From Prevotella scopos JCM 17725 (GTDB taxonomy: Bacteria > Bacteroidota > Bacteroidia > Bacteroidales > Bacteroidaceae), in the NCBI RefSeq assembly GCF_018127785.1, contig NZ_CP072390.1:1550001-1614000 (forward strand): a stretch of 64,000 nt of DNA, read 5' to 3'. This document shows positions 39,411-59,829 of the stretch, one piece after another. A model generated the notes under the pieces. It had not been told where the DNA came from. It saw nothing but the letters and a program-made list of their open reading frames with translations, and searched no databases. A program made the position numbers and the translations under genes. Each line of letters starts with the position of its first letter. The stretch's first letter is position 1.

Positions 39411-39494
39411 ATTTATCTTCATGAAAAAAAGAAATTCTTTTCATGAAGATAAATATTTATTTTCACGACAAAAAATATTTCTTTTCATGAAAAT
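39411..39494. repeat. Intergenic 22-bp-period array, copy A (four units)
   Basis: Core CATG/CACG at 39420, 39442, 39464 and 39486, exactly 22 bases apart. The consensus unit is close to AATATTTATTTTCATGAAAA, ending with ATTC. It lies between the convergent ends of ribD and the cyuA-like gene. Confidence 0.85.
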
Positions 39495-39532
39495 AATTCA
39501 AAAAAAAAGCTGAGTTAGGGTATAACAACCTT

Positions 39533-40822
39533 CTAATTACACTTATGAGTCATGATGTTAAGCACCATATCGTCGGTGTTGCACATCGCTTCCTTCCCTA
39601 TGCTTGTTAGGTTTCGGATAGACTTATCAACGTCTTCATCGATGATTCCCTCTGCAGCCGTCACATGTTTGCCCTCCATAGAGAGCGTGGCAGAGAGGAT
39701 GGCAGTCGATACGCCCGATGATATCTTCAGTGAACAACTTGGCTTCGCACCATCGCAAATCATACCCGTAAGGTTGGCTATCATGTTCTTTACTGAATGA
39801 CAAATATTGACATAATCACCTCCCATCAGATATGTGATACCACAACTGGAACCAATACTCGCCACCACACAACCGCAAAGGGCTGACAGTGCACCGAGAC
39901 TCTGCTTGATGTAAATGGCAGTGAGGTGACTTAAGATAAGTGCACGGATAAGTTCTTCACGTGTATTCTCATTCTCCTTGGCAAAAACGGCTACTGGGTT
40001 CGTTGCACAGATACCCTGATTACCAGAACCACTGTTGCTCATCACTGGAATCAAAGCGCCACCCATACGAGCATCGCAGGCTGAAGCGGTCTTCGCAATA
40101 ACGTGCGAGAAGATGCTATTACCAAAGATTCCACGACTCAAAGGACGGTCCATTATCTTACCCAAACAATGTCCATAATTTCCTTTCAAAGCCTCAGCAG
40201 CAGCACGGAGGTTATATCGCTTCGCCTCAAGGATAAAGTCTATTTCTTCGACAGGGGAGGTCGTTGCAAACTCCCAAACCCTCTTCAGACTCAGACAAAG
40301 CGGTGCTTTCTCTTCCGTAGCATTGCTGGGTTGCATATTATCAAGCTGTACATTCCCGTCTTTCTCTTCAAAGACAATATTCGTATGAGCACAAGAGATA
40401 ATAGCTGTGGCACGATGTCCCTCAGCCTCACAAGTGATTTCGATGTATAGTTTCTCAGTGATACCTTCCTTTAACTTGACGTCAATACGATTCTCACTGA
40501 TAAATGTCTTACCAGCTTCTAAGGTGTCAGGTGTGAGGTTTTTGATAACCTCCAACTGATACTCTGACTTACCCACCAAAGCACCGAGGGCAATGGCAAT
40601 AGGCAATCCTATCATTCCCGTGCCAGGAATACCGACTCCCATCGCATTCTTCAGAATATTAGCAGAGAGCAACACGCTAATATGCTCTGGTCTTCTACCT
40701 AATAACTCCGTGGCACGTGCAGTACATAATGCCACCGCCATTGGTTCTGTACACCCCACAGCAGGTACCACCTGCTGGTGTATCAATTCGATAATCTGTT
40801 CTCTAATGTTCTTCTCAAGCAT
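39533..40822 (-). CDS. UPF0597/CyuA-like iron-sulfur L-cysteine desulfidase or serine dehydratase-type protein
   Basis: 429 residues, full-length for the UPF0597 (YhaM/CyuA) family. Visible: VPAVGCTEPMAVALC with C24, the serine-dehydratase alpha-type segment MGGALIPVMSNSGSGNQGIC, ATNPV, and conserved Cys in ALCGCVVASIGSSCGITYLM and MICDGAKPSC that can hold a [4Fe-4S] cluster. Family members degrade L-cysteine to pyruvate, ammonia and sulfide; sulfide release from cysteine would fit an anaerobic oral species. Cytoplasmic, no signal peptide, no operon partner close by. Confidence 0.88.
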   Translation of the reverse strand: MLEKNIREQIIELIHQQVVPAVGCTEPMAVALCTARATELLGRRPEHISVLLSANILKNAMGVGIPGTGMIGLPIAIALGALVGKSEYQLEVIKNLTPDTLEAGKTFISENRIDVKLKEGITEKLYIEITCEAEGHRATAIISCAHTNIVFEEKDGNVQLDNMQPSNATEEKAPLCLSLKRVWEFATTSPVEEIDFILEAKRYNLRAAAEALKGNYGHCLGKIMDRPLSRGIFGNSIFSHVIAKTASACDARMGGALIPVMSNSGSGNQGICATNPVAVFAKENENTREELIRALILSHLTAIYIKQSLGALSALCGCVVASIGSSCGITYLMGGDYVNICHSVKNMIANLTGMICDGAKPSCSLKISSGVSTAILSATLSMEGKHVTAAEGIIDEDVDKSIRNLTSIGKEAMCNTDDMVLNIMTHKCN

Positions 40823-40896
40823 AATGATTTGGTTTAGGTTTAGCCTGATATTATGACCTAATAAAAGCTTTTACTTTATTTTTTCACTCTCTGACA

Positions 40897-41310
40897 TTAA
40901 TTTGTCTGCGAGAGTGCGTTACCTAACTCTTGTCGCATAGCCTCCATCTTTTGACGACGGTCGATAGAGAATGTAGAGCCATTCGCCTCAACATAGTCGA
41001 ATAAAACGTATGCCTTTTCCAACAGCATTTGGCGCAAAGGTTGCCCTTTACAGTTTGCTTCAGCATGTAGCAACTCTGCAACCATATTGATTTTATCTAT
41101 TCGCTCAGTCTCATCCCACTGCTCCTTAGCGTATTTCAACAACTCGTCTACAGAGAGATTACGTAAGACGTCATACTCTCCAACATACTGTCTGTAAAGG
41201 TCTTTCAAGTCCTTATCTCGCTTCAAGTCATCGTCTTTCTTTGTTAGAAAGTGCGAAATAGCAGCATTGAATTCCTCTATCAAACGAATAAAATAATCTC
41301 GTTGTAACAT
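40897..41310 (-). CDS. Small helical protein, DUF6483-like
   Basis: About 137 residues from MLQRDYF (41310). The start at 41334 is excluded because it lies within the -7 box region at 41332-41339. The sequence is all-helical and highly charged: MLQRDYFIRLIEEFNAAISH, then KDDDLKRDKDLKDLYRQYVG and EQWDETERIDKINMVAELLH. This layout resembles DUF6483 proteins, whose function is unknown. No signal peptide and no cysteine motif. It stands alone between two minus-strand genes, with its own promoter. Confidence 0.6.
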   Translation of the reverse strand: MLQRDYFIRLIEEFNAAISHFLTKKDDDLKRDKDLKDLYRQYVGEYDVLRNLSVDELLKYAKEQWDETERIDKINMVAELLHAEANCKGQPLRQMLLEKAYVLFDYVEANGSTFSIDRRQKMEAMRQELGNALSQTN

Positions 41311-41331
41311 AGTAGATTTCCTTTTATGACA

Positions 41332-41339
41332 CAAAAGTA
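41332..41339 (-). promoter_or_regulatory. -7 box of the DUF6483-like gene
   Basis: Minus strand TACTTTTG, 21 bases before the ATG at 41310. Confidence 0.5.
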
Positions 41340-41415
41340 AATAAAAAATTGATATAAATCCACTTTTCAGTGTGTAATTAAATAAAAAATATTTTAGGAT
41401 TGGGGTTATAAAGAA

Positions 41416-41451
41416 TTAGCCCAATTAGCCAAATAAGACCAATTGGGCTAA
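41416..41451 (-). terminator. Hairpin after the SF1 helicase gene
   Basis: TTAGCCCAATT (41416-41426) and AATTGGGCTAA (41441-41451) form a perfect 11-bp stem. It lies 16 bases past the helicase stop. Confidence 0.65.
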
Positions 41452-41466
41452 CAAACCTAATAACTG

Positions 41467-43437
41467 TTAGGACTGCGGAAGACTTTCCCACAGCTTCTTA
41501 TAGAATTTGTGTTGGGTCATTGTTTGGGCATTACCAAGGATGATTAGCTTCATTCTGGCACGTGTTATAGCAACGTTCATACGGCGTAAATCACGCAAGA
41601 AACCTATCTGACCATCATCGTTGGAACGCACAAGAGAAATGAGAATCACGTCACGTTCCTGTCCTTGGAAGCCGTCAACGGTGTTCACACTGATAAGACT
41701 TCGATAGGGCTTAAAGAACTCCCGCTTCTTAATCAGACTGCGAAGATACTGCACTTGAGCACGATAAGGGGAGATAACGCCCACATCTATTCGCTCATCT
41801 AACACACGTTGCTTTCCTATCTTTGTGAAGTAATCTTTTAAAGTCTTGAGTGTTAGCTCTGCTTCTCCTTTATTAATACGTCCAAAAGAAGAACCAACAA
41901 ACTGCTCATGGAAGGCGTTTTCCTTTTCGTTATTTGACTGAGAAGGACCTGAATTAGCCTCACTTTCCGTTAAATCATACGATGCAACGACAGCTTCATC
42001 GGACGTATCAACCCATACCATCGGATTGTCATAATCAAGGATGCCACGATATTTTATCTGCGGAGCAGTTTCTACCTGTCCACCATAGAACCAATCGGAT
42101 GAGAAGCGCATAATCTCTTCGTTCATTCGATACTGCACCTTCAGGAGTGTAACTACCTCTGGTTTGTTCTCTACAATTCGTTCCATCAAGGTCTTACCTA
42201 AGCCTCCACGCAGGGCAGCAATGCTTTTTACAGTCGGTGGAAGTTGACAATGATCACCCGCAAAGATGACTCTTGACGCTCTACGAATGGCTATCCAGCA
42301 AGCTGCTTCAAGGGCTTGTGCAGCCTCATCGATGAATAAAGTCGTAAACTTCTGACCTTCCATTATCCTACTGTTTGCACCAACGAGGGTGGAAGCAACG
42401 ACACGTGCCTCTCCAAACAGTTCTGCATTAATACGTATTTCAAGCTCAGTAGCACGGCTCTTCAGTCTATCCATCTTCTGATGATAGCTTTCAGAACCTT
42501 TCTTTCTATTGTTTCTCAATTCACGAATAGCCTTCCGAATCGACCATAATTGAGGATAATCAGGATGCGCTTCAAACTTTCGTTCGTATGTGAAACCTAA
42601 CATCTTATCATTCACTCGGGTAGGATTGCCAATGCGAAGAACATTAATACCACGGTCGACAAGCTTCTCACAAATCCAGTCAACAGCCATATTACTCTGC
42701 GCACAAACCATCACCTGACTCTCTCGCATCAGTGTTTCGTTGATCGCTTCGACCAATGTTGTCGTCTTACCTGTTCCCGGTGGACCATGAACTACCGCCA
42801 CATCCTTTGCCCATAACACCTCGTTGACAGCCTTTTCTTGTGTTGGATTCAGCCAAGGTAATCGAATAGGAGCAAAGGAGAACTTCTCTACCTTTTGTCG
42901 TGAATAAAACAAGTCACGAAGATGAGCCAATCTATTTCCCTTTGCTTTCATGGTATGGTCTAACGCATCAAACATCATTTGATAGCTCGTTTCATCAAAA
43001 CCTAATTGACATCCAATCTGCTCGGAAGCTGATTGAAGGTCTAACAACGGAGCTGAGTCAGGGACAGCAACAACCATTCTGTCGCACTCTACATAAGATA
43101 CCATACCTGTAAAACCATAGTATTTCAGCTGAGCAGACTTATTAGGAGTCCCCTTCTCCGTCTCAACAAACTTAAAGAAAAGGAGCGGACGACCACTTTC
43201 AAAGTTATGTTCGATATCCCCATCCTGTGTACGAAACACCTCAACACACAGTTGGTTGAGTCCATTATAAAACCGTTTTCCCACTCTTAATGGGAACCAA
43301 GCGTCACCTCGCTTCACTTTCCGCTGCATACCAGCAGCCTCAGTCTGCTTTCTAAAGGCTTCTTTCTCGGCATAATACTCCATTTGAAGCAGTAAACGCT
43401 GACGTTGTAAGAGTTGTATTGGACTTTCCTGAAGCAT
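41467..43437 (-). CDS. Superfamily 1 DNA/RNA helicase, IGHMBP2/Upf1-like
   Basis: 656 residues. Helicase motifs in order: Q-like LNPTQEKAV, Walker A VHGPPGTGKTTTLVEAI, motif Ia CAQSNMAVDWI, motif II LFIDEAAQALE, motif III FAGDHCQLPPTVKS, motif IV/V VISPYRAQVQYLR and TVDGFQGQERDVILIS, motif VI RMNVAITRARMKL. The N-terminal 150 residues match the domain that precedes the ATPase core in bacterial IGHMBP2-type helicases. It is a cytoplasmic ATP-dependent 5'-3' helicase by family. Preceded by an 8-nt-period repeat. Confidence 0.93.
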   Translation of the reverse strand: MLQESPIQLLQRQRLLLQMEYYAEKEAFRKQTEAAGMQRKVKRGDAWFPLRVGKRFYNGLNQLCVEVFRTQDGDIEHNFESGRPLLFFKFVETEKGTPNKSAQLKYYGFTGMVSYVECDRMVVAVPDSAPLLDLQSASEQIGCQLGFDETSYQMMFDALDHTMKAKGNRLAHLRDLFYSRQKVEKFSFAPIRLPWLNPTQEKAVNEVLWAKDVAVVHGPPGTGKTTTLVEAINETLMRESQVMVCAQSNMAVDWICEKLVDRGINVLRIGNPTRVNDKMLGFTYERKFEAHPDYPQLWSIRKAIRELRNNRKKGSESYHQKMDRLKSRATELEIRINAELFGEARVVASTLVGANSRIMEGQKFTTLFIDEAAQALEAACWIAIRRASRVIFAGDHCQLPPTVKSIAALRGGLGKTLMERIVENKPEVVTLLKVQYRMNEEIMRFSSDWFYGGQVETAPQIKYRGILDYDNPMVWVDTSDEAVVASYDLTESEANSGPSQSNNEKENAFHEQFVGSSFGRINKGEAELTLKTLKDYFTKIGKQRVLDERIDVGVISPYRAQVQYLRSLIKKREFFKPYRSLISVNTVDGFQGQERDVILISLVRSNDDGQIGFLRDLRRMNVAITRARMKLIILGNAQTMTQHKFYKKLWESLPQS

Positions 43438-43446
43438 ATCTTTTTA

Positions 43447-43490
43447 TAGTTGACAAGTTAACGAGTAGACGAGTAAACAAGTTGCTTGTA
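43447..43490 (-). repeat. 8-nt-period repeat upstream of the SF1 helicase
   Basis: Read on the minus strand: CAACTTG TTTACTCG TCTACTCG TTAACTTG TCAACT. The unit pattern is nnnACTTG/nnnACTCG. It ends about 10 bases before the helicase start and has the same orientation to its gene as the copy at 51822-51910. Confidence 0.75.
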
Positions 43491-43560
43491 AATAATTAAA
43501 ACGGTATTATTTATAAATAAAAGCACACTTTGCACACTAAGTATAAAAGAAAGTAGATCA

Positions 43561-44343
43561 CTAAAAGAAGAACATTGTACGACTATTCTGCTTTTTCTGC
43601 GCCAAAGCATTTTCCATTTGCTTTGTAGCTGCCTTAAAGAAGAACGCAATTAGGTGTTCATCCGTCCCTTCCGTTCGTATGGTTCGCAAAGCAGCAATAT
43701 ACTCTTGGCGATCTTCTTTCTGGATAATCAATTCAGGATAACCATGACGTAGCAAGATGAAGTTGGACAACAGCCTGCCTGTTCTCCCATTCCCATCACG
43801 GAAAGGGTGTAAGTATTCGAAGAAACCATGGAACCGAGCAGAAAGCACCATAGGGTGAAGTTCTCCACGCTTCATCATCCCTGCTGTTGAAGACATCAGT
43901 CGTGGCACCTGTGCTACCAATCCTTCATGTTCGCCAAAAACCGTATCACCAGCTGCCATATCCACCATTGTAAACTCCCCAGGTACAGCATCTGCCTGCT
44001 TATAAGGAAGTGTACGAAGTGTTACCAACCTATTGATAGTCTTCATTAGTTCGACATCAAAAGGGTGATCTAAATGATTATGCATCCATTCGTATGCTGC
44101 AAAGTGGTCTGCCATCTCCTGACACTCCAGCAATGACTTACCAACTGGATGATAACCTAACTGCTCTTCAAACAGACAACGTGTATCATCCACTGAGAAA
44201 GAAGACCCTTCTATACCACAGCTATGGCAGGAAAAAAGGATTTCAGAATACTCTCTAAACGCCTTCTTTCCCATTGGCAGCACTATCTTTTCTTGATACT
44301 CTGCTACCAACTCATCATATCTTTTTATCTCTGTTTCAAACAC
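43561..44343 (-). CDS. Fic domain protein (AMP-transferase type, self-inhibited class)
   Basis: About 260 residues from GTG 44343 (VFETEIKRYDELVAEY). The frame opens 23 codons earlier, but a -7 box (44348-44355) ends 4 bases before this GTG, so this is the likely start. The Fic motif is HPFRDGNGRTGRLLSN. The inhibitory motif (S/T)xxxE(G/N) is visible as SCGIEG ahead of the core, so it resembles class II Fic proteins in which this Glu blocks ATP. Fic enzymes transfer AMP from ATP to Ser/Thr/Tyr of target proteins. No antitoxin gene adjoins it. Target unknown. Confidence 0.9.
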   Translation of the reverse strand: MFETEIKRYDELVAEYQEKIVLPMGKKAFREYSEILFSCHSCGIEGSSFSVDDTRCLFEEQLGYHPVGKSLLECQEMADHFAAYEWMHNHLDHPFDVELMKTINRLVTLRTLPYKQADAVPGEFTMVDMAAGDTVFGEHEGLVAQVPRLMSSTAGMMKRGELHPMVLSARFHGFFEYLHPFRDGNGRTGRLLSNFILLRHGYPELIIQKEDRQEYIAALRTIRTEGTDEHLIAFFFKAATKQMENALAQKKQNSRTMFFF

Positions 44344-44347
44344 GTTA

Positions 44348-44355
44348 CAAATATA
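44348..44355 (-). promoter_or_regulatory. -7 box of the Fic gene, 4 bases before the GTG
   Basis: Minus strand TATATTTG, TAAC, GTG. A leaderless message is implied. Confidence 0.5.
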
Positions 44356-44405
44356 GCACTTTTTATCTAATATCCATTCTACAACGAATAAAAAACAGAA
44401 AGGGC

Positions 44406-45167
44406 TTAACAACTGAAGTCATCCTCTATCTCTGCGGCTTTACCCATTTGCAAACCAGGGGGCGCACAAGATGATAAGAACAAGGCAACACGGAGCTCCT
44501 CATAATCTGTAGGTAAGGAAAGAACGAGGTCTAACTTCCCATCTCCATCCAAGTCACCAGCAAACAGAAGTGCAAAACTTGCACCATCGACCCTTGCCTC
44601 TCTAACGACTCGTTCGCCATTCAGCAATAATGTATAGTTCTTTAATTGACTTTCTCCCTGCGCCTTTGCCTCTAACTTGTAATGCTTCCCAGCAAAAGTA
44701 AAATTCCTTACAGAGCCTGGTTCCAGATAAGTACTATCTGAAAATGCAACATCAGCAATCTTAACTTTCCCCTTCTTTATTGGCAACTGATTGACAAACA
44801 ATATCGTGTTTCGTTTTTCTGATAGATATGTTGGAATGGTACTTGAGCACGCATCCTCTCGCATCTCAATACTATACCGAGCTTTACCAACATAATAATC
44901 CTTCCCATCTTTATAGAGTTCAACCCAATTTCGGTTGATTATCGTATCTGGATTACATAAACGATAATTAAAAGGAACAAGAATCTTATACGTGAGAGGC
45001 TTCTTCTTCACAACCTTAACACTATCAACCTTCTTTACAAACAAACTATCTTCCTGCTGTACAGACGACTCCTGCACCTGACTAACAGGTTTCTTATCAG
45101 TACAAGATAGAAGTATCATGCAAAGACTCAACAAAAAGAAAAGGAACTTAACTTTCTTCATAATCAC
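44406..45167 (-). CDS. Lipoprotein with calcium-binding-type GDLDGDGKLD repeat
   Basis: 253 residues (first ATG 45167; MKKVK at 45161 is also possible); lipobox MILLSC. A Lys/Ser-rich linker follows, then a compact domain with FNYRLCNPDTIINRNWVELY. Near the C-terminus is GDLDGDGKLDLVLSLPTDYE, an FG-GAP/EF-hand-type loop as found in Bacteroidota surface proteins; the ends are cysteine-containing (SSCAPPG, DDFSC). I do not recognize the family. The gene lies 62 bases before the Fic gene on the same strand, with its own -7 box at 45215-45222. Confidence 0.7.
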   Translation of the reverse strand: MIMKKVKFLFFLLSLCMILLSCTDKKPVSQVQESSVQQEDSLFVKKVDSVKVVKKKPLTYKILVPFNYRLCNPDTIINRNWVELYKDGKDYYVGKARYSIEMREDACSSTIPTYLSEKRNTILFVNQLPIKKGKVKIADVAFSDSTYLEPGSVRNFTFAGKHYKLEAKAQGESQLKNYTLLLNGERVVREARVDGASFALLFAGDLDGDGKLDLVLSLPTDYEELRVALFLSSCAPPGLQMGKAAEIEDDFSC

Positions 45168-45214
45168 GTTTTTATTGCCTATCAGTAAACACTATTATTA
45201 TATACCACACTCTG

Positions 45215-45222
45215 CAAAAATA
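45215..45222 (-). promoter_or_regulatory. -7 box of the lipoprotein gene
   Basis: Minus strand TATTTTTG, about 48 bases before the ATG. Weak support. Confidence 0.4.
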
Positions 45223-45363
45223 ACACTTTTCCCTTTATATTCCAACCTTAAACTGTATAAAAGACTATGTAGCAATAATTATATATGGGTATTTTGCAAC
45301 TTTATCGACACCATTTTATATTTTTTTTTCTTTAATTCTAACCCTACTATCGCAAATATTTGC

Positions 45364-45371
45364 TATTTTTG
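45364..45371 (+). promoter_or_regulatory. -7 box of the C69 dipeptidase gene
   Basis: TATTTTTG, placing the RNA start near 45378; this excludes the ATG at 45360 and favours ATG 45411. Confidence 0.5.
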
Positions 45372-45410
45372 TCATCAATAATTAACAGCAAAAACAAGAC
45401 TTTAAAGCTT

Positions 45411-46853
45411 ATGAAAACAAACAAAATGCAAACAGAACACAAACTTCCTTCAGAGTGTACAACCATCATCGTTGGTCAAGATCAGACTGCCGATGGATCA
45501 ATGATAGTAGCGCGTTCAGAGGACTGGGACGCTATGGAAGCAAAGAACTACGAGATTTTTGAGGCTACAGACAATGGTCCACGTGAGTTCGTTGCAAAGG
45601 ATAGCCCTTTCCGTTGCGAACTTCCAGAGAAGGCTTTGGGCTATTCTGCCCTTTCTCCGTATAATCTTCACGGCCATTGGGGCAGTGCTGGTTTCAACAC
45701 AGCAGGTGTCGGCATGAGTGCCACGGAGAGTATCTTTAGCAATGACGAGGTATTGAAACACGACCCATTGGTAGAGAATGGTGTGGCAGAGAACTCTGTC
45801 TTCAACATTACCCTACCTTACGTCCACACCGCACGTGAAGGTGTTGAGCGTTTGGGTATGCTCATCGAGAAATATGGTATCGCTGAAGGTTTCGGTATTG
45901 GCTTCGTAGATAGCAAGGAAATATGGTACTTGGAGACAGCTTGCGGTCATCGTTGGTTGGCTTGCCGTATGCCAAAGGATAAGTATTTCGTAACTGGTAA
46001 CCAAAGTCGTTTCCGCACTTACGATCCTAACGACAAGGAGAATTACCTCGCATCAGCCGACTTAATTGAGTTTGCAGAGAAGCACGGACTCTACAACCCA
46101 GCACATGGTGCCTTCGACTTCCATGAGACTTACGCACGTGATATCGAACTCGACACCACCTATAACTACCCACGTGTATGGGGCTTGCAGCAGTTATTCT
46201 CTCCAGAAATCAAGAATGACGTAACAAAGAACACCTTCCCTGTCTTTGCTAAGGCTGCTCATAAGGTCACACTGACCGAACTCCGCACGGCCTTCCGCTT
46301 CCACTACGACAATACAGAGCACGACCCTTACCTAAATAGCAATCCTAAGGAACCTTACCGCCCAGTTTCTATCTTCCGTACCACTCAGACCCACCTCATA
46401 CAGGTACGCCCTGAACTGCCACAAGCTATAGGTTGTGTGAATTATGTTGCTATGGGTATGGCTGACCTCGGTGTGTTCCTACCACTCTATCAGGGCATCA
46501 CGTCCTATCCAGAGGCTTACACAAAGGGTAATGATGAGTCAAGTGCTGACTCTGCTTACTGGAAGTTCCGTAAGGTGATGGTATTGGGTATGACTAACTA
46601 TAACAAATATGCTCCTATCATCAAGGAGGCGTATGCAAAGTTTGAAGCTGAGACCGACCAGCGTCAACGTGAGATGGAAGAGGAATACCTTCGCATCTAT
46701 AAAACACAACCTCTTCATGCAAAGGATATGTTGCAGGCTTTCTCTGACAAGATTCTTAACAGTGCACTCGACCTTGCCGACCGTCTCCAAGAGAAACTCT
46801 TTACGCTGATGACGCAAGACATCCAGCAAGAATATCTCTTCCACGGAGCATAA
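45411..46853 (+). CDS. pepD: Peptidase family C69 (PepD-type) dipeptidase
   Basis: 480 residues from MKTNKMQTEH at 45411. The family's N-terminal-nucleophile Cys is seen in ECTTIIVGQDQTADGSM, followed by YSALSPYNLHGHWGSAGFN, GVGMSATESIFSND, and WYLETACGHRWLA, which are conserved C69 motifs. Family members hydrolyse dipeptides with broad specificity in the cytoplasm or periplasm; here no signal peptide is visible, so a cytoplasmic role in peptide catabolism is most likely. The assigned symbol is by family; Bacteroidota have several C69 paralogues. It stands alone downstream of its own -7 box. Confidence 0.9.
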   Translation: MKTNKMQTEHKLPSECTTIIVGQDQTADGSMIVARSEDWDAMEAKNYEIFEATDNGPREFVAKDSPFRCELPEKALGYSALSPYNLHGHWGSAGFNTAGVGMSATESIFSNDEVLKHDPLVENGVAENSVFNITLPYVHTAREGVERLGMLIEKYGIAEGFGIGFVDSKEIWYLETACGHRWLACRMPKDKYFVTGNQSRFRTYDPNDKENYLASADLIEFAEKHGLYNPAHGAFDFHETYARDIELDTTYNYPRVWGLQQLFSPEIKNDVTKNTFPVFAKAAHKVTLTELRTAFRFHYDNTEHDPYLNSNPKEPYRPVSIFRTTQTHLIQVRPELPQAIGCVNYVAMGMADLGVFLPLYQGITSYPEAYTKGNDESSADSAYWKFRKVMVLGMTNYNKYAPIIKEAYAKFEAETDQRQREMEEEYLRIYKTQPLHAKDMLQAFSDKILNSALDLADRLQEKLFTLMTQDIQQEYLFHGA

Positions 46854-47493
46854 TAGTTGGTTAAAACACCCAGCTTTAAAAAAGCTATTGTTGGAATTAA
46901 TGAGGATAATGGTTCCCCCCTTCGCTCTATACAGAGCAAAATTAGAAATGACTTTCTACATGAAAACATGGGATATGTTATATCGGAACTATCATTAGTG
47001 TTAAACTTGGAGATAGAGTCTATTAACCAAAAGAATTTTGTTTTGAGTAACAGAGCTCTTTTCTGACCATAAGTAGATTCCATCTCCACGTAATCATACA
47101 TTGTGCTGAGCCTCAGTATGCATGTTTATTACCAATATAGTACCATGCGTGCTGGGCACAGGCACTTTAATAAAAGAAGACAACAAGAGGGCATTGTCAT
47201 TATTACTATATTGTAAGACAACAATGACTAAGTTCTATGGGAGAAGTATATGAGACACCTATACATCCTTATAACTAAATAGTTACGTTATGGAACATAA
47301 AATAGCTGAAGAAGCTTAAAAGCCGAACGTTGTCAACCTTTAATACCATGGCAACACTTAAATTTTAAACTAATACCGAAGTTTTCACCCATGAAAAAAT
47401 AAAGAGAAGAACAAAGAAATCTATAACCAATTTACATACTAATTATCTCATTCCTCTGCTTCTTAAAGGAATAGAGATAGAAATAATTACATT
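46854..47493. other. Intergenic region without supported genes
   Basis: 640 bases. A 69-codon plus-strand frame (46857-47066) has no recognizable match and no start signal; it may be chance. No strong hairpin, tRNA or repeat was found. The last 100 bases presumably hold the promoter of the T9SS gene, but no clear TAnnTTTG box is seen. Confidence 0.4.
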
Positions 47494-49281: not shown

Positions 49282-49326
49282 TTCATTCAAACAATTCCTA
49301 CAAAAATAAAGAAAACGTTTATAACT

Positions 49327-49375
49327 GCCCATCAATATTTCAATATCAAGAAATTTGATGGGCTTTTTCTTTTTT
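49327..49375 (+). terminator. Terminator after the T9SS cargo gene
   Basis: GCCCATCAA (49327-49335) pairs with TTGATGGGC (49355-49363), followed by TTTTTCTTTTTT. Confidence 0.85.
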
Positions 49376-49482
49376 GTAATAGAGTTAGGTGAGGGTACAA
49401 AAGCCTTATGTTATTATATAGTCATCTGGTAAAGTAAAGGTAAAAAATCTGTCGTTTCACAACGTATATAACTTTTTTTTCC

Positions 49483-49490: not shown

Positions 49491-49547
49491 CAGACAATAG
49501 CTATTGCACATCTGTTCTACGGGAGCAAAGCAATATGCGAAAAATTC

Positions 49548-50575: not shown

Positions 50576-50649
50576 CTTTAAGCCTTAAAGAAATACGATT
50601 TTTCGAGTCTAACAATGCCGTTTTGAAAACCTTAAAACAGCATTTCGCA

Positions 50650-50733
50650 AGTTCTTTTCATGAACAAAAAGATTTATTTACGTGAAAAGAAATATTTATT
50701 TACGTGAAGAAAAATATTTATTTTCATGAAAGT
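50650..50733. repeat. Intergenic 22-bp-period array, copy B (four units)
   Basis: Core positions 50659 (CATG), 50681 (CGTG), 50703 (CGTG) and 50725 (CATG), exactly 22 apart; the last unit is AATATTTATTTTCATGAAAG, then TAATTC. Between the convergent ADP-ribosylglycohydrolase and patatin genes. Confidence 0.85.
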
Positions 50734-50736
50734 AAT

Positions 50737-51726
50737 TCATCGTTGATGGTCTTTCATGAATGTTTCCAACTGCTTTCGATACTTTATACCAGTATCCTCA
50801 CCTATTTTAAGGATATCCCTTATCGCCTTTACATTGAAGTCGGTGACACCATAAGTACCTAAATCGGGATTAATATAGAGGTCGGCTTTTGTGCGATTGA
50901 CGTTATATTTCTTTATATCAGGACGTTCTGCCAACCAATCTAGAATACCACCCAGACCTTTCAGAAAGCTAAAAGGTGAATGATAATCATCGTGTTTGCG
51001 CTGCTGTAGATCGACGGCAATAACAATGTCTGCTCCCATCTTTCGTACAACATCCACAGGAAGATTATTTCCCATACCGCCATCCACCAGCATCAGCGTG
51101 TCTATCTGCACTGGTTTGAATGCACCGGGAATAGCCATACTGGCACGCATATTACGCGCCATGGAACCAGTATCGAGGACTATTTCTTGTTGACGACGGA
51201 TGTCAAAGGCTACACATGAGAAGGGAATAGCTTGTTTGACGACACGACGTTGTACGGGAGAACGACTGACGAGTGAGTCAAGGAAATTATAGACATGGTC
51301 GCCATGCAACATTCCAAACCCCACCTTATTATTAGCATCAGCCTTTCTACGCACAGGAAAGCCGAAAACATAGATTATTCCATTTTCTTCTTTATAGACT
51401 TTTCCAACCAATGTGGTATCTCTATCAGCCAAGAGTGCTAACCAATTCTGCGAACGGAAGAGTTTTTCGAGGTCATCTGCACGATAGCCTTGCGCGTATA
51501 ATCCGCCAATAATCGCTCCTATACTTGTTCCAGCAATATAGTCAATAGGAATCTTTTCTCGCTCCAACTCCTTTAGTATTCCTATGGCTGCAGCACCTTT
51601 CGCACCACCACCACCAAGCACAAGTCCCACCTTTGGGCGGGTCACTTCACCTTGACTTTGTTGCTGTGCCATCAAAGATAGACCACAGCATATCAGTAGC
51701 AGAAATACAAATAAGTATTTTTTCAT
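50737..51726 (-). CDS. Patatin-like phospholipase/hydrolase, exported
   Basis: 329 residues, signal peptide about 1-21 (LLLICCGLSLMAQQ). Patatin motifs: oxyanion hole VLGGGGAKGAAAIG, nucleophile GTSIG with S68, and the dyad Asp in LVDGGMGNN (D215). The family contains Ca-independent acyl hydrolases of phospholipids or other lipids; here the product would act in the periplasm or outer membrane. It lacks the C-terminal POTRA/barrel part of the long RssA/PlpD-type proteins. A -7 box ends 5 bases before the ATG, suggesting a leaderless transcript. Confidence 0.9.
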   Translation of the reverse strand: MKKYLFVFLLLICCGLSLMAQQQSQGEVTRPKVGLVLGGGGAKGAAAIGILKELEREKIPIDYIAGTSIGAIIGGLYAQGYRADDLEKLFRSQNWLALLADRDTTLVGKVYKEENGIIYVFGFPVRRKADANNKVGFGMLHGDHVYNFLDSLVSRSPVQRRVVKQAIPFSCVAFDIRRQQEIVLDTGSMARNMRASMAIPGAFKPVQIDTLMLVDGGMGNNLPVDVVRKMGADIVIAVDLQQRKHDDYHSPFSFLKGLGGILDWLAERPDIKKYNVNRTKADLYINPDLGTYGVTDFNVKAIRDILKIGEDTGIKYRKQLETFMKDHQR

Positions 51727-51731
51727 AACGA

Positions 51732-51739
51732 CAAAAGTA
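51732..51739 (-). promoter_or_regulatory. -7 box of the patatin gene, 5 bases before ATG
   Basis: Minus strand TACTTTTG, TCGTT, ATG. Confidence 0.45.
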
Positions 51740-51821
51740 GTATTTTTCTAAGAGAAAAGCGTATTTTTTTCTTTTTATTGTTACTTCTCATTTCTCCAAC
51801 AATCTTCATATTTCTCAAAAG

Positions 51822-51910
51822 CAAGTAACTTGTTCACTTGTAAACTTGTCTATTCGTAAACTCCAAAACAAATAACTTGTTTACCCGTAAACTTGTCAAC
51901 TCGTCAACTA
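51822..51910 (+). repeat. 8-nt-period repeat upstream of the RluA-like gene
   Basis: Blocks GTAACTTG TTCACTTG TAAACTTG and TTTACCCG TAAACTTG TCAACTCG TCAACT share the pattern nnnACTTG/nnnACTCG. A 16-base imperfect stretch separates them. The last block contains the TTG used as -33 element of the downstream promoter. Confidence 0.75.
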
Positions 51911-51923
51911 TTCCTTATCTTTG
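51893..51923 (+). promoter_or_regulatory. Promoter of the RluA-like gene, with -33 in the repeat
   Basis: TTG (51893-51895), 20-base spacer, TATCTTTG (51916-51923), CACT, ATG at 51928. It fits the consensus fully; RNA should start at or next to the AUG. Confidence 0.6.
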
Positions 51924-51927
51924 CACT

Positions 51928-53643: not shown

Positions 53644-53656
53644 GTACCGAAGCCTT

Positions 53657-55645
53657 CTAATCTTCCTCTTCTTCTATTCTTTCAACCCTTGGAATACTAT
53701 TTCCTACCTTTTTAGCATGTGACTTTAATGTGAGTGGTACGTTCTCTATCAAGACATTACTCGTATTCAGACCTAAAGAACGTGTCATACTCAATTTCAA
53801 ATGGTCAATCCATTCATAGGCATCCATGATAAGTCGCTCCTTAAAAGAGAAAGAAGCGAAGGTTGAATAAATCCTATTAATAAGCACAAATACGAAGTTT
53901 CCCATCACATTATGCTTAGCCAATGACGGATAAGATGACGCAAGAGAGAACTCATTCTTAGCTACCATATCCTCGATTATCTGCCTAAAATAACGATTGA
54001 CAAGTGGGTGGATGCGGAATCCTAACCGTAGATTGATACGATAAAGAGTATCGGGAACAAGCGTGGTAACGTCATATTCCAGCGTTGATGGACTGTCTTG
54101 ATAGTCTATATGTAGCAAGAAATAATGGTCAGCACGCATTGGATGCTTGTTAATGATTGAATAGAGAATCTTCTGTTCAATGTCGTATTTACCCCCAAGT
54201 TTGGTGAGATAGACAATATTTGTCGCATACTTAGGGATTGAATCATCGTTCTTAATATCGGAAATAATACTGAACGATTCACGAACATCACGTATCTGTA
54301 TCTGCGAATTACGAATGGTTGTGGCATTATACCACACATACATGATTGCTATCATCACACTGGCAAGAAGCATGGTTACCCAACCTCCATTCATAAACTT
54401 TGCCATGTTTGCGACGAAGAAGATACTCTCCAAACCGACAAAGACAATAAGGAACAGGAGTGTTAGCCAACGATTTACTCGACGAATAGTAAGATAAGCA
54501 CTCAAGAGGAAGGTAGTCATGAGCATGGTTATCGTGATTGACAAGCCGTAAGCAGCCTCCATTCGTTCCGAACTCTTGAAGAAAAGTATCACAATCACAC
54601 ATAAGACGAAGAGCGACATATTGACAAATGGGATATAAAGTTGTCCCTTAACATCGGTCGGATACTTAATCTTCTGACGTGGCCAAAACTTCAAGTTCAT
54701 TGCTTCACTGAAGATAGTAAACGACCCACTAATCAATGCTTGACTCGCAATGATGGCTGCTATCGTTGCCATGACAATACCGAAAAAGAGCATACCGTGG
54801 GGCATAATGGCATAAAAAGGGTTCAAGTCAGAGGTAAGATTATTGACATGTACAATTATCCAAGCCCCTTGACCAAGATAGTTGAGGATTAACATGACCT
54901 TGACAAAGGCCCAACTCGTGCGGATGTTATTAATACCACAATGCCCTAAGTCGGAATATAAGGCCTCAGCACCTGTCGTACAGAGGAACACTGCACCCAA
55001 GATTAAGAACCACTCTGGGTTACTCGTCAGCAAGCGGATGGCATGTAAGGGATTAAAAGCTTGCAGAATAGGAATATAATCACCGATATGCATAGCTCCT
55101 AACACTCCCAACATTGAAAACCATAAGAGCATTAATGGACCAAACAACTTGCCAATCATATTCGTTCCGAATTGCTGAATGAAGAACAAAACAGTAACAA
55201 TACAAAGGGCAATAGGTACAACTGGGGTCTCTGGTTCATAGACCTTCAATCCCTCTATAGCAGAGAGAACCGTAATAGAAGGCGTTATTACACCATCAGC
55301 TATCAGCGTACTGGCACCAATAATCGCTAAGAAGTAAAACCATTTACGACTATGTCGACGTATTAAAGCATACAAAGCGAGTATTCCACCCTCTCCTTTA
55401 TTATCCGCACGGAGGGCTATTAAGACATATTTAACAGTCGTTTGAAGGGTTAATGTCCATATAATACACGACACTGCACCGATGATATATTCAGCATTAA
55501 CAGGGTTTCCAGCCCTAACAATAGCCTTCATCACATACAAAGGAGATGTACCTATATCTCCGAAAACAATACCTAAGGTTACAATAACGCCCATTAAACT
55601 TAGTTTATGGCGTGCAGAAATACTATAATTGTTATCCCGTGTCAT
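53657..55645 (-). CDS. kup: Low-affinity potassium transport protein Kup
   Basis: 662 residues with about 12 transmembrane helices in the first 430 (for example VTLGIVFGDIGTSPLYVMKA and KGEGGILALYALI), then a long cytoplasmic domain. The TSPLY and GEGGxxALY motifs are Kup/HAK signatures. The protein is a proton-coupled potassium importer of the inner membrane. Its stop is only 13 bases from the stop of the convergent RluA-like gene and no terminator is visible between them. Upstream there is 142 bases to metG, which diverges. Confidence 0.96.
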   Translation of the reverse strand: MTRDNNYSISARHKLSLMGVIVTLGIVFGDIGTSPLYVMKAIVRAGNPVNAEYIIGAVSCIIWTLTLQTTVKYVLIALRADNKGEGGILALYALIRRHSRKWFYFLAIIGASTLIADGVITPSITVLSAIEGLKVYEPETPVVPIALCIVTVLFFIQQFGTNMIGKLFGPLMLLWFSMLGVLGAMHIGDYIPILQAFNPLHAIRLLTSNPEWFLILGAVFLCTTGAEALYSDLGHCGINNIRTSWAFVKVMLILNYLGQGAWIIVHVNNLTSDLNPFYAIMPHGMLFFGIVMATIAAIIASQALISGSFTIFSEAMNLKFWPRQKIKYPTDVKGQLYIPFVNMSLFVLCVIVILFFKSSERMEAAYGLSITITMLMTTFLLSAYLTIRRVNRWLTLLFLIVFVGLESIFFVANMAKFMNGGWVTMLLASVMIAIMYVWYNATTIRNSQIQIRDVRESFSIISDIKNDDSIPKYATNIVYLTKLGGKYDIEQKILYSIINKHPMRADHYFLLHIDYQDSPSTLEYDVTTLVPDTLYRINLRLGFRIHPLVNRYFRQIIEDMVAKNEFSLASSYPSLAKHNVMGNFVFVLINRIYSTFASFSFKERLIMDAYEWIDHLKLSMTRSLGLNTSNVLIENVPLTLKSHAKKVGNSIPRVERIEEEED

Positions 55646-55730
55646 TCTTATTATATCTTAAAACGGATGCAAAGGTAAACAAAATCATGATAACTGCATA
55701 ACCCTCTTAAGGCTTTTATCTATATTTCTT

Positions 55731-55760
55731 TTGTCGTTTCTCTTATTTACTGTAACTTTG
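55731..55760 (+). promoter_or_regulatory. Promoter of metG
   Basis: TTG (55731-55733), 19-base spacer, TAACTTTG (55753-55760); about 21-base leader after the expected start point. Confidence 0.65.
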
Positions 55761-55787
55761 CAGTAGATAATAAATAATCAAACAGAT

Positions 55788-57851
55788 ATGGAAGAAAAGA
55801 AATTTAAGCGCACCACTGTTACCGCAGCATTGCCTTATGCGAATGGAGGTGTACATATAGGACACCTTGCTGGTGTATATGTTCCTGCCGATATCTACGT
55901 TCGTTATCTCCGATTGAAGAAGCGTGAAGTTGCTTTCATTGGTGGTAGTGACGAGCATGGTGTGCCTATCACCATCCGTGCTAAGAAGGAAGGTATCACC
56001 CCACAGGACGTATGTGACCGTTATCATAAGTTGATAAAGGACTCTTTTGAAGAGTTTGGTATCTCCTTCGACATCTACAGTCGCACAACAAGTGAGACTC
56101 ACCACAAGTTTGCTTCAGACTTCTTCCGTAAGCTATATGATGATGGTAAGCTCGTCGAGAAGGAGAGTGAGCAGTACTATGATGAGGAAGCTCACCAGTT
56201 CCTTGCCGACCGTTATATCATGGGTGAGTGTCCTCACTGTGGCAATCCAAATGCTTATGGCGACCAATGCGAGAAGTGTGGTAGTGACCTTAGCCCTATG
56301 GAGCTGAAGAATCCTCACTCAACCATCTCTGGTTCACATCCTGTCATCAAGCGTACTAAGAACTGGTACCTGCCTTTGAATGACTATCAAGAGTGGCTGA
56401 AGCAGTGGATTTTGGAGGATCATAAGGAGTGGCGACCAAACGTTTATGGTCAGTGTAAGAGCTGGTTAGACATGGATCTCCAGCCACGTGCTATGACCCG
56501 CGACCTTGATTGGGGTATTCCTGTACCAGTAGAGGGAGCCGAGGGCAAGGTTCTTTACGTATGGTTCGATGCACCTATCGGCTATATTTCAAACACAAAG
56601 GAGCTTTGCGAAAAGGATCCAGAGCACTTCGGCAACTGGCAGAAGTGGTGGCAAGACCCAGAGACACGTATCGTTCACTTCATTGGAAAGGACAATATCG
56701 TGTTCCACTGTCTTATCTTCCCAACTATGTTGAAGGCGCATGGCGACTATACTTTGCCTGATAACGTACCATCAAATGAGTTCCTCAACCTTGAAGACGA
56801 TAAGATTTCTACAAGTAAGAACTGGGCTGTATGGCTCCACGAGTATCTCCGCGACTTTGAAGGAAAGCAGGATGTACTACGTTATGTACTGACTGCTAAC
56901 GCACCAGAAACCAAAGATAACAACTTTACATGGAAAGACTTCCAGGAGCGTAACAACTCTGAACTCGTTGCTGTATATGGTAACTTCGTTAACCGTGCAC
57001 TGCAGTTGACAAAGAAGTATTGGAATGGTGTGGTTCCGGCTTGTGGCGAATTGGAAGAGATTGACCGGCAGACTATCCAAGAGTTCAAGGATGTTAAGGC
57101 AAAGGTAGAGGCTTACCTCGATATCTTTAAGTTCCGTGAGGCACAGAAGGAGGCTATGAACCTCGCTCGCATCGGTAATAAATACATAGCAGAGACAGAA
57201 CCTTGGAAACTCTGGAAGACCGACCCTAAGCGCGTTGAGACCATTCTCTACATCTCACTGCAGCTCGTTGCCAACCTCAGTATTGCCTTCGAACCATTCT
57301 TGCCGTTCAGCAGTAAGAAACTTCGTGAGATGATTAACATGACGGAGTATGACTGGAGTGAACTTGGTTCTACCGACCTTCTCCCAGCTGGTAAGCAGTT
57401 GGCAGAGCCTGAGTTGCTCTTCGAGAAGATTGAGGATGAGGCTATCGAGGCTCAGTTGCGTAAGTTGGAAGAGACTAAGAAGGCTAACGAAGCCGCTTCC
57501 TACAAGGCTGAACCAATCAAGAAGGACATTCCTTTCGAAGACTTCGAGAAGCTTGATATCCGTGTTGGACATATCATCAAGTGCGAGAAGGTGAAGAAGA
57601 GTAAGAAACTCTTGCAGTTCACTATCGACGATGGTTCGGGTGTTGAGCGCACTATCCTTAGTGGTATTGCTGCCTACTATGAGCCAGAGCAACTCACTGG
57701 TAAGGATGTTCTCTTCGTTGCTAACTTTGCTCCTCGCAAGATGATGGGCATCGAGAGCCAAGGAATGATTCTCTCTGCCGTTAACTTCGATGGTTCACTC
57801 ACCGTTACTACAACCATGGGTGAGGTGAAACCGGGTAGTCAGGTGGGATAA
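55788..57851 (+). CDS. metG: Methionine-tRNA ligase with C-terminal tRNA-binding domain
   Basis: 687 residues. HIGH motif: [16 protein letters not shown]. Zinc knuckle: [23 protein letters not shown] loop as [13 protein letters not shown], near 336-348. The anticodon-binding helical domain follows, then a linker with [20 protein letters not shown] and the C-terminal EMAP/tRNA-binding OB fold ending [12 protein letters not shown]. It charges initiator and elongator tRNA-Met in the cytoplasm. It has its own good promoter and a bidirectional terminator behind it. The Ile-Ser-Thr-Ser form of the KMSKS loop is an accepted variant. Confidence 0.98.
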
Positions 57852-57941
57852 TACCCACCTCTAACTCTGACTAAAAGAGATAGAATATGATAGGCGTAGT
57901 GAGTTATCAGACTACCAAGTTTATCACGACATAACAACTAT

Positions 57942-57983
57942 AAAGGCAATTATAAGGTTTATCAGACCTTCTAATTGCCTTTA
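57942..57983. terminator. Bidirectional terminator between metG and the lipoprotein pair
   Basis: AAAGGCAATTA (57942-57952) pairs with TAATTGCCTTT (57972-57982), with an inner AGGT/ACCT stem. It is placed between convergent stop codons. Confidence 0.85.
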
Positions 57984-58000
57984 TTTTATTGCAGATTAAA

Positions 58001-58774
58001 CTATTCAGCAAAGCTAACTTCATCCAAATCACGTATCTTTGAAAGTCTCATCAGCGGCTTTCTCGGCAGTTTATAGATGGCGCGTTTAAGTTCAGTTTCC
58101 TTTTCATAGTCATCTCCATGGATGTTCTTATCCACAAATTTAATGCCTGTCAGAAAGTTGATGCTTAATCGCGCAAAGACCTTTGCACCATAATTACGCG
58201 ACTTTTCATAACCTATCAGCATAAAGTCAGATGAATGATAGCGAAAGCAATACTCCCAAAAACCATATCTACCATAATTATAGTGTAGATAAAGTTTGCT
58301 GTCTTTTATGCTAACGTTCAACTCAGGAGGATCGTAACATCCTCCATCCTCATTCTCTGAAGAGAAACAACTTTCATTTTTCAAAGCTAACTTATAACCA
58401 TTACCATGCGTAAACAATATTATAATCCCACGCCTATTACGATCAACCTTATGACCATCACGATCGTTCACAAAGCTATCCTTGCGTGTAGCCTTGATGA
58501 TTAACACGCAATCCATAAGCCCATCTTTATTCAAGTCACCATAAACCTTGTCAAATAGCTTATAACCCTTAGGGATAAAACCCATTATCTGTTGCTGACC
58601 AGTAACAGATATGTGACTTCCTTTATCTATTATCATGGAGCCTGAATTCTTCTTCATAGGTTGTGAAGTCACAACTAAAAAGTCAGCCGCAAAACCTATA
58701 CACCATGTCTTATCGCAACAGCCAACTAACATAAAGACTGCTAATAACAGCCCTACTACAGTCGTCTTGTTCAT
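58001..58774 (-). CDS. Lipoprotein, second copy of a tandem pair (VCBS/FG-GAP-like)
   Basis: 257 residues; lipobox LVGCC. The mature part carries FIPKGYKLFDKVYGDLNKDG, LMDCVLIIKATRKD, NRRGIIILF, ESCFSSENEDGGCYDPPELN and YGRYGFWEYCFRYHSSDFML. The GDLNKDGLMDCVLI loop is a calcium-binding-type repeat. It is a clear paralogue of the gene at 58801-59595, which lies 26 bases upstream in the same operon; the cores are strongly similar while the N-termini and last 40 residues differ. Function unknown; probably anchored in the outer or inner membrane facing the periplasm. Confidence 0.8.
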   Translation of the reverse strand: MNKTTVVGLLLAVFMLVGCCDKTWCIGFAADFLVVTSQPMKKNSGSMIIDKGSHISVTGQQQIMGFIPKGYKLFDKVYGDLNKDGLMDCVLIIKATRKDSFVNDRDGHKVDRNRRGIIILFTHGNGYKLALKNESCFSSENEDGGCYDPPELNVSIKDSKLYLHYNYGRYGFWEYCFRYHSSDFMLIGYEKSRNYGAKVFARLSINFLTGIKFVDKNIHGDDYEKETELKRAIYKLPRKPLMRLSKIRDLDEVSFAE

Positions 58775-58800
58775 TTGTTTTAAAGCTTATATCTTATCTA

Positions 58801-59595
58801 TTAATCATCTGTATTCAATCTCTCTATTTCAAGTTCATCAAAATCATCTATCTCCGAGAGTTTCTTTAATGGTTCTTTCTTCAGCTTTATAACTTTCCGT
58901 ACAAACTTTTCTTCCGCATCATCATCATACTTATTGACATTATCATCATCATACTTAACCCCTGTAAGGAAGTTAATACTCACTTTTCCAAGCGCTGTTG
59001 GACCCTGACTACCAAATGATTCATAACCTATCAACATAAAGTCAGAGTCTTGATAACGGAAGCAATACTCCCAATAGCCATACCGACCATGGGCATAATG
59101 TACAAAAAGCTTACTATTCCTAATATCTATACTCAGGTAAGGAGCAAAATAAACTCCACCATCCTCATTCTCTGACGAGAAGCAGTTGTAATTCTTTACA
59201 GCAACTTTATAGCCTTTCTCTTCAGAGAACAGCACAATAATACCCCTACGATTACGATCTACCACTTTATCAAAACTGTTTTTTATGAAGCCATCCTTGC
59301 GTGTTGCCTTGATGATTAACACACAGTCATCAAGCCCATCTTTGTTCAAGTCACCCGAAATCTTCTCAAATAGTTTATAACCTTTGGGAATGAAATCAGT
59401 TATTCGCTGCTTGTCAGCAACATCATACTGACGCATATCTCCTTGTTTTTCCACCTTTGATATACGCTTCATTGACTGCCTTGCTGCGGCTTGATGGTTG
59501 GCAGTATCGGCTTTTGACCGCACCTTATCACGGCAACCTGTCAACGCCATTGCCACACAGAGCAAACAAAGAGTTATCTTACTGACTTGTTTCAT
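58801..59595 (-). CDS. Lipoprotein, first copy of a tandem pair (VCBS/FG-GAP-like)
   Basis: 264 residues from ATG 59595 (MKQVSKITLCLLCVAMALTG, lipid Cys in ALTGC). The frame opens at 59679, but the -7 box at 59622-59629 supports the inner start. The core matches its neighbour: FIPKGYKLFEKISGDLNKDG, DDCVLIIKATRKDG, NRRGIIVLF, NCFSSENEDGG, HGRYGYWEYCFRYQDSDFML, SINFLTGVKY. The C-terminus is very acidic (DDDNVNKYDDDAEE). Family not recognized. First gene of a two-gene operon ending at the bidirectional terminator. Confidence 0.8.
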   Translation of the reverse strand: MKQVSKITLCLLCVAMALTGCRDKVRSKADTANHQAAARQSMKRISKVEKQGDMRQYDVADKQRITDFIPKGYKLFEKISGDLNKDGLDDCVLIIKATRKDGFIKNSFDKVVDRNRRGIIVLFSEEKGYKVAVKNYNCFSSENEDGGVYFAPYLSIDIRNSKLFVHYAHGRYGYWEYCFRYQDSDFMLIGYESFGSQGPTALGKVSINFLTGVKYDDDNVNKYDDDAEEKFVRKVIKLKKEPLKKLSEIDDFDELEIERLNTDD

Positions 59596-59621
59596 GTCGT
59601 ATATAGTATTGCTTTCATCTG

Positions 59622-59629
59622 CAAATATA
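59622..59629 (-). promoter_or_regulatory. -7 box of the tandem lipoprotein operon
   Basis: Minus strand TATATTTG, about 26 bases before the ATG at 59595. Confidence 0.55.
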
Positions 59630-59738
59630 GATAAAAAAAAGGATAACAAACGACAGAAAACACCTTTTATTATCACCAAAGTGTATGTGTTTACTAATCA
59701 AAAAGAAGGTAGATCAATAGCACAACAATTCTCTCCTG

Positions 59739-59829
59739 CGAATTATTTTCATGACAAGAAGAATTTATTTTCATGAAGATAAATATTTATTTTCACGACA
59801 AAAAATATTTATTTTCATGAAAATAATTC
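59739..59829. repeat. Intergenic 22-bp-period array, copy C (four units)
   Basis: Core positions 59750 (CATG), 59772 (CATG), 59794 (CACG) and 59816 (CATG), exactly 22 apart; the last unit contains the perfect palindrome TATTTTCATGAAAATA and ends in ATTC. This copy lies between divergent genes. Confidence 0.85.

Follow-up and report, generated by a model that had tools for sequence, protein, structure and literature searches.

Introduction

Dispersed chromosome-organising sites are known from several bacterial systems, namely Noc/NBS, SlmA/SBS, MatP/matS and ParB/parS, and in all of them the site is a single palindrome. Among the histone-like proteins, plain HU has little sequence specificity and IHF binds to single sites. 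The element described here is an array of about 90 bp, built from four contiguous palindromic units of 22 bp. Three such arrays lie in the 64,000 nucleotides of Prevotella scopos JCM 17725 that were analysed (contig NZ_CP072390.1, positions 1,550,001 to 1,614,000; hereafter the window). As in the four systems above, dozens of arrays are dispersed unevenly along the chromosome. Unlike their sites, however, each array joins four sites at exact 22-bp steps, would be read by a protein of an unrelated family, and is found mostly on one of two replicons.

Repeats of comparable appearance are also known. REP/BIME elements consist of intergenic palindromic units in tandem, which vary in number and spacing and prefer the 3′ ends of genes. 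The arrays share the intergenic position and the tandem palindromic units, but they hardly vary in unit number or spacing and showed no bias in orientation. Within the genus, the 188-bp repeat PINSR of the P. intermedia/nigrescens group is described as lineage-specific, intergenic, high-copy and largely conserved in its places between two strains, with no terminal inverted repeats reported (PMC4755523). By this description, its sequence being given only in a figure, PINSR resembles the arrays as a lineage-specific, intergenic and high-copy Prevotella repeat, but the arrays have inverted ends. The original prediction for this locus, which was made from the sequence alone, knew of no described family of such a form, and a search of openly licensed papers likewise yielded no description of a 4 × 22-bp array. 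Nor did these papers reveal a cognate DNA element or a function for HU-HIG (PF18291), the family of the HU/IHF superfamily to which our candidate reader belongs. We propose, with a probability of roughly 0.7, that the arrays are platforms for four dimers of an autoregulated, sequence-specific HU-winged-helix protein, which would bind cooperatively and organise the chromosome.

Results and discussion

The three arrays of the window were located as follows.

Array 1: 39409-39500, no strand; four 22-bp units, identified by profile and direct reading; cores at 39414-39429, 39436-39451, 39458-39473 and 39480-39495 with the centres CATG, CATG, CACG and CATG; between a ribD-like gene (+ strand, ends at 39367) and a serine dehydratase alpha-chain gene (- strand, ends at 39533)
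Array 2: 50648-50739, no strand; four units with cores starting at 50653, 50675, 50697 and 50719 and the centres CATG, CGTG, CGTG and CATG; between an ADP-ribosylglycohydrolase gene (+ strand) and a patatin-like gene (- strand), the stop codon of which it abuts
Array 3: 59738-59830, no strand; four units with cores starting at 59744, 59766, 59788 and 59810 and the centres CATG, CATG, CACG and CATG; between two divergent genes, neither with a Pfam match

Allowing for up to three mismatches, the 16-bp palindrome TATTTTCATGAAAATA has 11 matches in the window, whereas 0.80 would be expected and none of 100 shuffles reached 11. All 11 fall within these arrays and keep an exact 22-bp register. The twelfth unit (unit 3 of array 2, TATTTACGTGAAGAAA at 50697) differs from the palindrome at more than three positions, yet it stands in register. 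Together with the direct reading, this bears out the prediction of three arrays, each with four palindromic units that repeat exactly every 22 bp, and the ATTC word that had been noticed at their ends is part of AATTC, the terminal word of all three. As the units are contiguous 22-mers without spacers, it was also correct to state that the arrays are not clustered regularly interspaced short palindromic repeats (CRISPR). The whole element is near-palindromic, which is why the array profile matches each of the three on both strands, and it usually carries the caps [GA]AATT...AATTC, from which arrays 1 and 2 depart at their left ends. The unit can be written as TATTTATTTTCATGAAAATAAA, with dyads, CATG and AAATATTT, alternating every 11 bp. 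A core variant, TTTACGTGAA, prompted the idea of a parS-like core.

A consensus query retrieved at least 40 arrays from the host genome (best 40 of 54 candidates scored). A profile built from 37 copies (best 150 of 2343 candidates scored, two weaker matches excluded) located 49 places, including partial ones, of which 43 are on the replicon C2 (1.86 Mb) and six on C1 (1.44 Mb), a bias with p = 3.7e-6 against replicon length. Four units per array are a strong but not an absolute rule, with 37 of 41 extracted P. scopos arrays aligning as in-register four-unit arrays; L008 has five units, L041 has fewer than four in register, and L028 and L047 contain a one-base register shift. In P. jejuni DSM 26989, the closest named relative identified, the search returned 153 strand matches (same cap), corresponding to about 75 arrays, of which 63 were present in the 719 kb examined, one further match being false. 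The search of the genome and its relatives that had been suggested along with the original prediction thus found arrays that are numerous in relatives, with a fixed period and a nearly fixed unit number, and neither outcome that had been named as refuting the prediction came about. Simple tandem-repeat decay was rejected because of this nearly fixed unit number in P. scopos and P. jejuni.

The 384 units of 96 arrays from these two genomes are further constrained in their composition. The centre dinucleotide is AT in 269 units, AC in 59, GT in 56 and GC in none (8.6 expected for GC, p = 7e-5); a single CGCG-centred unit occurs in G212, which is another species. Arrays with a single CACG or CGTG unit number 62 of 96 against 41 expected (permutation, 5e-5), with 22/37 in P. 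scopos (P = 0.009) and 40/59 in P. jejuni (P = 0.00015), although orthologous arrays make the two counts non-independent. Both half-sites deviate from TTCA in 18 of the 384 units, against 27.9 expected (p = 0.0098). The flanks at the two array ends do not pair with each other more than those of different arrays do (first position: 0.55 within arrays, 0.59 between arrays).

As the HU-HIG family is presumably expanded in Bacteroidetes, genes of this family were searched for. The HU-winged-helix-turn-helix (HU-wHTH) gene of P. scopos is located at C2:1654357, some 40 kb outside the window; the product matches HU-HIG at 2.5e-24. With 86.1, 100.1 and 81.2 bits, respectively, the proteins of P. scopos, of Prevotella G017 and of P. 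vespertina score above the gathering cut-off of 26.2, and the candidate reader is thereby a member of the family, with what appears to be the HU-plus-winged-helix layout of the family description. It comprises about 200 amino acids, a putative HU domain followed by a predicted C-terminal winged helix. In the predicted structure the winged helix occupies residues 145-208, a block with a predicted local distance difference test score (pLDDT) of 75-92, and is preceded by HU-like secondary structure.

What connects this protein with the arrays is the position of the arrays. A family-A array lies 64 bp before the start of the P. scopos HU-wHTH gene, and in several species the coordinates place arrays immediately before HU-HIG genes. 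The core of the upstream array is that of the dispersed arrays in P. scopos, P. jejuni, G017, P. vespertina and P. veroralis. In ten of the 11 HU-wHTH genes with visible upstream DNA, a TAnnTTTG box, which matches the Bacteroidetes -7 element, is followed by an array. These genes belong to P. scopos, P. jejuni, G017, P. vespertina (three, the exception L420 aside), P. veroralis (two) and P. histicola (two). The layout was measured by script in seven of them, with a spacing between box and array of 10-16 bp, and by eye in L419 (15 bp) and the two P. veroralis genes. A distant relative, L378 (25% identity), is encoded in G045. Two further genomes had an array at the place predicted from this linkage, among the matches listed: in G348 (array C1:1696463-1696554, gene C1:1695777-1696367, - strand) and in G136 (array C1:280983-281074, gene C1:280296-280886, - strand).

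The linkage extends to HU-HIG genes in general. Of 40 sampled HU-HIG genes, 20 are preceded by a strong 22-bp array at a distance of no more than 450 bp, compared with 21 of 232 other genes (p = 7e-9), and lag 22 was the best of lags 14-30 upstream of 24 of the 40. When the six previously known cases were left out, 14 of 34 HU-HIG genes still had a strong array (p = 8e-6). The control genes, all with an upstream gap of at least 150 bp, had arrays in 13/164 cases in P. scopos and 8/68 in other Prevotella. Across the genus, 17 of 198 genomes encode an HU-wHTH protein at E 1e-20. Arrays were detected by profile in all 12 HU-wHTH genomes sampled from these 17 (2 to 151 matches) and in none of 12 genomes without the gene, which were not randomly drawn (Fisher, 7.4e-7).

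Recognition helix and array core also appear to change in parallel. Proteins with the helix YAYQ are paired with the core TTTnCA|TGnAAA, those with ST[SA]YR with TTTCAYCA|TGRTGAAA (TTTCAgCA.. in L419), and those with NAYR with TTATC..GATAA, L420 being the exception. As there are few independent cases, this pairing is only suggestive. A further HU-wHTH class (L424 and L426 of P. histicola, L380 of P. veroralis) has TTATC..GATAA arrays after the same promoter. Nearly identical HU-HIG proteins are encoded by L404 of P. jejuni and L406 of G016, both with upstream 22-bp arrays of the AAAAGGTAGACC type, and this suggests that gene and array travel together.

On these grounds the following mechanism is proposed. 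One HU-HIG dimer would read one 22-bp palindromic unit, with one winged helix per 11-bp half, and the HU part would serve as dimerisation and DNA-bending core. As 22 bp correspond to two helical turns, four dimers could line up along one face of the DNA. The array just downstream of its own promoter would allow the HU-wHTH protein to shut off its own transcription. For the roughly 50-75 dispersed arrays, which as a rule lie away from promoters, chromosome organisation is the likeliest role; they may be architectural sites at which the chromosome, mostly that of one replicon, is bent or bundled. Before the link to HU-HIG emerged, an octameric wrap of the Lrp type had been entertained; no evidence for it was found here.

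Several results weigh against this mechanism. The HU part of the structural model is of low confidence (mean pLDDT 59.5), and a Foldseek search with the model found nothing at E 0.001, the best match being an HU at 1.9e-3. The P. vespertina HU-wHTH paralog L420, which has the NAYR helix, shows neither the box nor a TTATCA array in the stretch seen. A strong array is missing at 20 of the 40 sampled HU-HIG genes, and counted by protein cluster strong arrays occur in 8/17 clusters at 60% and 4/8 at 40% identity. Compared with P. jejuni stretches that had been chosen for their arrays, the excess is smaller (20/40 vs 49/241, p = 2e-4). The 12-to-0 split of the co-occurrence sample, with its non-random negatives, also separates clades. 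G141 encodes an HU-wHTH protein and has only two array matches, while G016 and G030, listed without one, have one weak match each, and G046, which is not among the 17 positives, has one short match. Many 22-bp arrays of other sequence adjoin genes outside HU-HIG, and the arrays have strong folding energies, as a reading as RNA or cruciform would want.

The operator-like position of the array at the HU-wHTH gene's own promoter could also be read more conventionally, with the arrays being ordinary operators and the HU-HIG protein a transcription factor with about 50 target promoters. Yet an inward TAnnTTTG box within 40 bp was found at only 6 of the 192 edges of the 96 arrays, three of the six being at the two HU-wHTH loci, so that the arrays are not enriched near such boxes, and they are not biased to divergent gaps either. 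We consider it unlikely that the arrays are ordinary operators.

Alternatively, the arrays might act as nucleic-acid hairpins, i.e., as bidirectional terminators, stabilisers of mRNA 3′ ends or cruciforms, with the 22-bp step resulting from the size of the hairpin. Folding energies are indeed far below those of dinucleotide shuffles, with mean z values of -5.5 and -5.3 for the two strands of 67 family-A arrays and -3.9 and -4.3 for 59 other arrays, compared with -0.42 for 100 random segments. Across 91 copies, however, every pairing measure, for the whole-array hairpin as for the unit palindromes, was reached or exceeded by 496-500 of 500 shuffles. Paired cells amounted to 82.0% (84.3 and 83.3 in shuffles), and compensatory changes were below chance, with 38 cells changed on both sides against 103 in shuffles and 61 against 84. 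Sliding the pairing partners lowers the number of paired cells, as it must for any consensus palindrome. Pairing below the level of shuffles speaks against a conserved RNA; selection that disfavours perfect, unstable palindromes would be consistent with it. With covariation below shuffles, a structured RNA was rejected as a candidate.

The arrays show no preference for gene 3′ ends. The flanking genes of P. jejuni arrays are convergent in 13, codirectional in 34 and divergent in 8 cases, compared with 41, 102 and 35 array-free gaps (p = 0.69), and adding the P. scopos arrays revealed no difference either (p = 0.34). An intrinsic terminator was accordingly rejected, as its 3′-end preference is missing and the gap classes resemble those of array-free gaps. 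The two convergent gaps and one divergent gap of the original prediction are thus a true description of the window and not a property of the family. As orientation equals that of array-free gaps and the copies pair less than shuffles, terminator and RNA-hairpin readings are disfavoured, and we consider hairpins of any kind quite unlikely. Of the two options that had been offered at the outset, the cooperative protein-binding or nucleoid-type array is the best supported and now has a named candidate protein, whereas the terminator-like element does not agree with the gap classes.

Comparison of individual sites bears on the stability of the arrays. Of 41 P. scopos arrays, 21 have a P. jejuni array within 400 bp of the matching flank, seven have a flank match with no array nearby, and 13 have no usable match, the comparison favouring presence in that the P. 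jejuni stretches were chosen around arrays. One of the seven, the L005 site, proved to hold a three-unit array in P. jejuni. In the window, the gap of array 1 contains an array in the P. jejuni counterpart as well (L153:6088), and at the site of array 3 the P. jejuni locus is duplicated, with the array kept in both copies. For array 2, the same gap in P. histicola holds a 22-bp array of unrelated sequence, and so does the region behind the P. jejuni patatin-like gene, the other flank of which has moved. Near the gene adjoining array 2, two other tandem repeats with periods of 24 bp and 47 bp are located at 51707-51769 and 51816-51909. P. veroralis and P. vespertina contain 22-bp arrays with the cores TCATCATGATGA and TCACCATGGTGA, consisting of central palindromes followed by further degenerate 22-bp steps on both flanks. 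Seven of 14 P. veroralis and six of 12 P. vespertina arrays share a neighbouring orthologous gene with a P. scopos or P. jejuni array, counts that include some loose matches and carry no formal null. One gap holds arrays in four species, with three core types. Four-unit arrays that are capped by AATT and built on different cores also occur in Prevotella G017 and G212. A segment of about 18 kb is inverted between P. jejuni (G060, C31:24331 and 42176) and P. scopos (L269/L270), and a P. jejuni array lies near each end.

A defined length, inverted ends, a copy number between 49 and about 75, lineage-specific sequences and the two arrays at the ends of the inverted segment could all be expected of functionless, non-autonomous mobile repeats, similar to miniature inverted-repeat transposable elements (MITEs) or REP, which were spread and kept by recombination. 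In addition, a different 22-bp array rides inside a MITE-like repeat of about 290 bp with the terminal inverted repeat GGCTCTATAACGAATCGTGTGGG, found on both C1 and C2 (e.g., L346-L375). Several of the 22 copies viewed have apparent 8-bp target duplications, and the repeat is presumably ISL3-like. The best 40 of 134 candidates in the P. scopos genome are all 91-98% identical, with none in the window, and P. jejuni has only three weak matches. Against mobility of the arrays themselves stands the finding that 21 of the 41 have a P. jejuni array near the corresponding flank, several of them in intergenic surroundings that can no longer be aligned, and that arrays with different cores fill the same gaps in P. 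veroralis and P. vespertina. Five sites were compared at which the array is missing from one species. The differences there involve entire intergenic regions or degraded remnants, and as these few loci include no clean empty site, a clean MITE insertion is disfavoured. Overall, a purely mobile nature of the arrays appears very unlikely.

Arrays with a 22-bp period are also more widespread than this family. In P. scopos samples (544 kb, lags 8-60), lag 22 gave 24 matches and every other lag at most three; at least eight of the 24 belong to the one family inside the MITE-like repeat. With stricter settings P. jejuni gave 45 matches at lag 22 and at most five at others, except for 14 at lag 44. 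Lag-22 matches were also obtained for G017 (7 in 60 kb), G016 (3 in 60 kb), G010 (1 in 40 kb), P. histicola (1 in 60 kb), Bacteroidales metagenome-assembled genomes plus Barnesiella (1 in 88 kb) and G024 (3, but up to six at other lags). Twenty Bacteroidia genomes (400 kb) yielded two at lag 22, of which the one from the same family is convincing, and up to three at other lags. No lag-22 match was found in G045, G046, a P. vespertina sample, eight other Prevotella, Hoylesella and Hallella loci (141 kb) or Pedobacter, and 100 kb of E. coli gave no match at any lag. Many of the 22-bp arrays are of unrelated sequence, mostly self-complementary and intergenic (L148-L187 of P. jejuni, L274-L293, L084, L343).

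The distribution along the replicons could indicate what the dispersed arrays are for. By hand count, 33 of the 43 arrays on C2 lie within a quarter of its length on either side of coordinate 0, and the 37-copy profile found none between 616 and 977 kb. Sampled in 12-kb pieces, C2 has two sign changes of the GC skew, one close to coordinate 0 and the other between about 0.65 and 0.93 Mb. Since dnaA is located on C1, the C1 arrays do not follow the pattern of C2, and core versus accessory gene content could explain it, a distribution linked to origin and terminus is treated as a lead. The bias for one replicon recurs in relatives, with hand counts among the matches listed of 45 (C1) and 5 (C2) for G348, 18 (C2) and 1 (C1) for G367, and 14 (C1) and 1 (C2) for G136. 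The contig that is rich in arrays also carries the HU-wHTH gene in P. scopos, G348, G367 and G136, the four genomes with listed matches that have two large contigs. This bias may reflect either function or core-genome content.

As the gene and most of the arrays share one replicon in four genomes and the arrays are depleted around the likely terminus of that replicon, a more far-reaching idea can be put forward tentatively, although we regard it as doubtful. HU-HIG might be a diversified, sequence-specific histone-like family with private 22-bp array codes, one member of which would mark one of the two chromosomes of oral Prevotella for chromosome identity, segregation or nucleoid occlusion, with arrays and recognition helix co-diversifying as the protein drifts. 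We know of no system for any of these three functions in the phylum.

Conclusion

HU proteins are textbook DNA binders with little sequence preference. If our proposal of a four-dimer platform is true, a branch of HU which recognises an array of four sites in fixed geometry, controls its own gene through one copy and decorates one chromosome with dozens of others would represent a new way of building a nucleoid. The arrays provide a binding-site handle on HU-HIG and make the chromosome organisation of two-chromosome Prevotella directly testable, and the array-helix pairs of several species constitute a natural experiment in protein-DNA coevolution.

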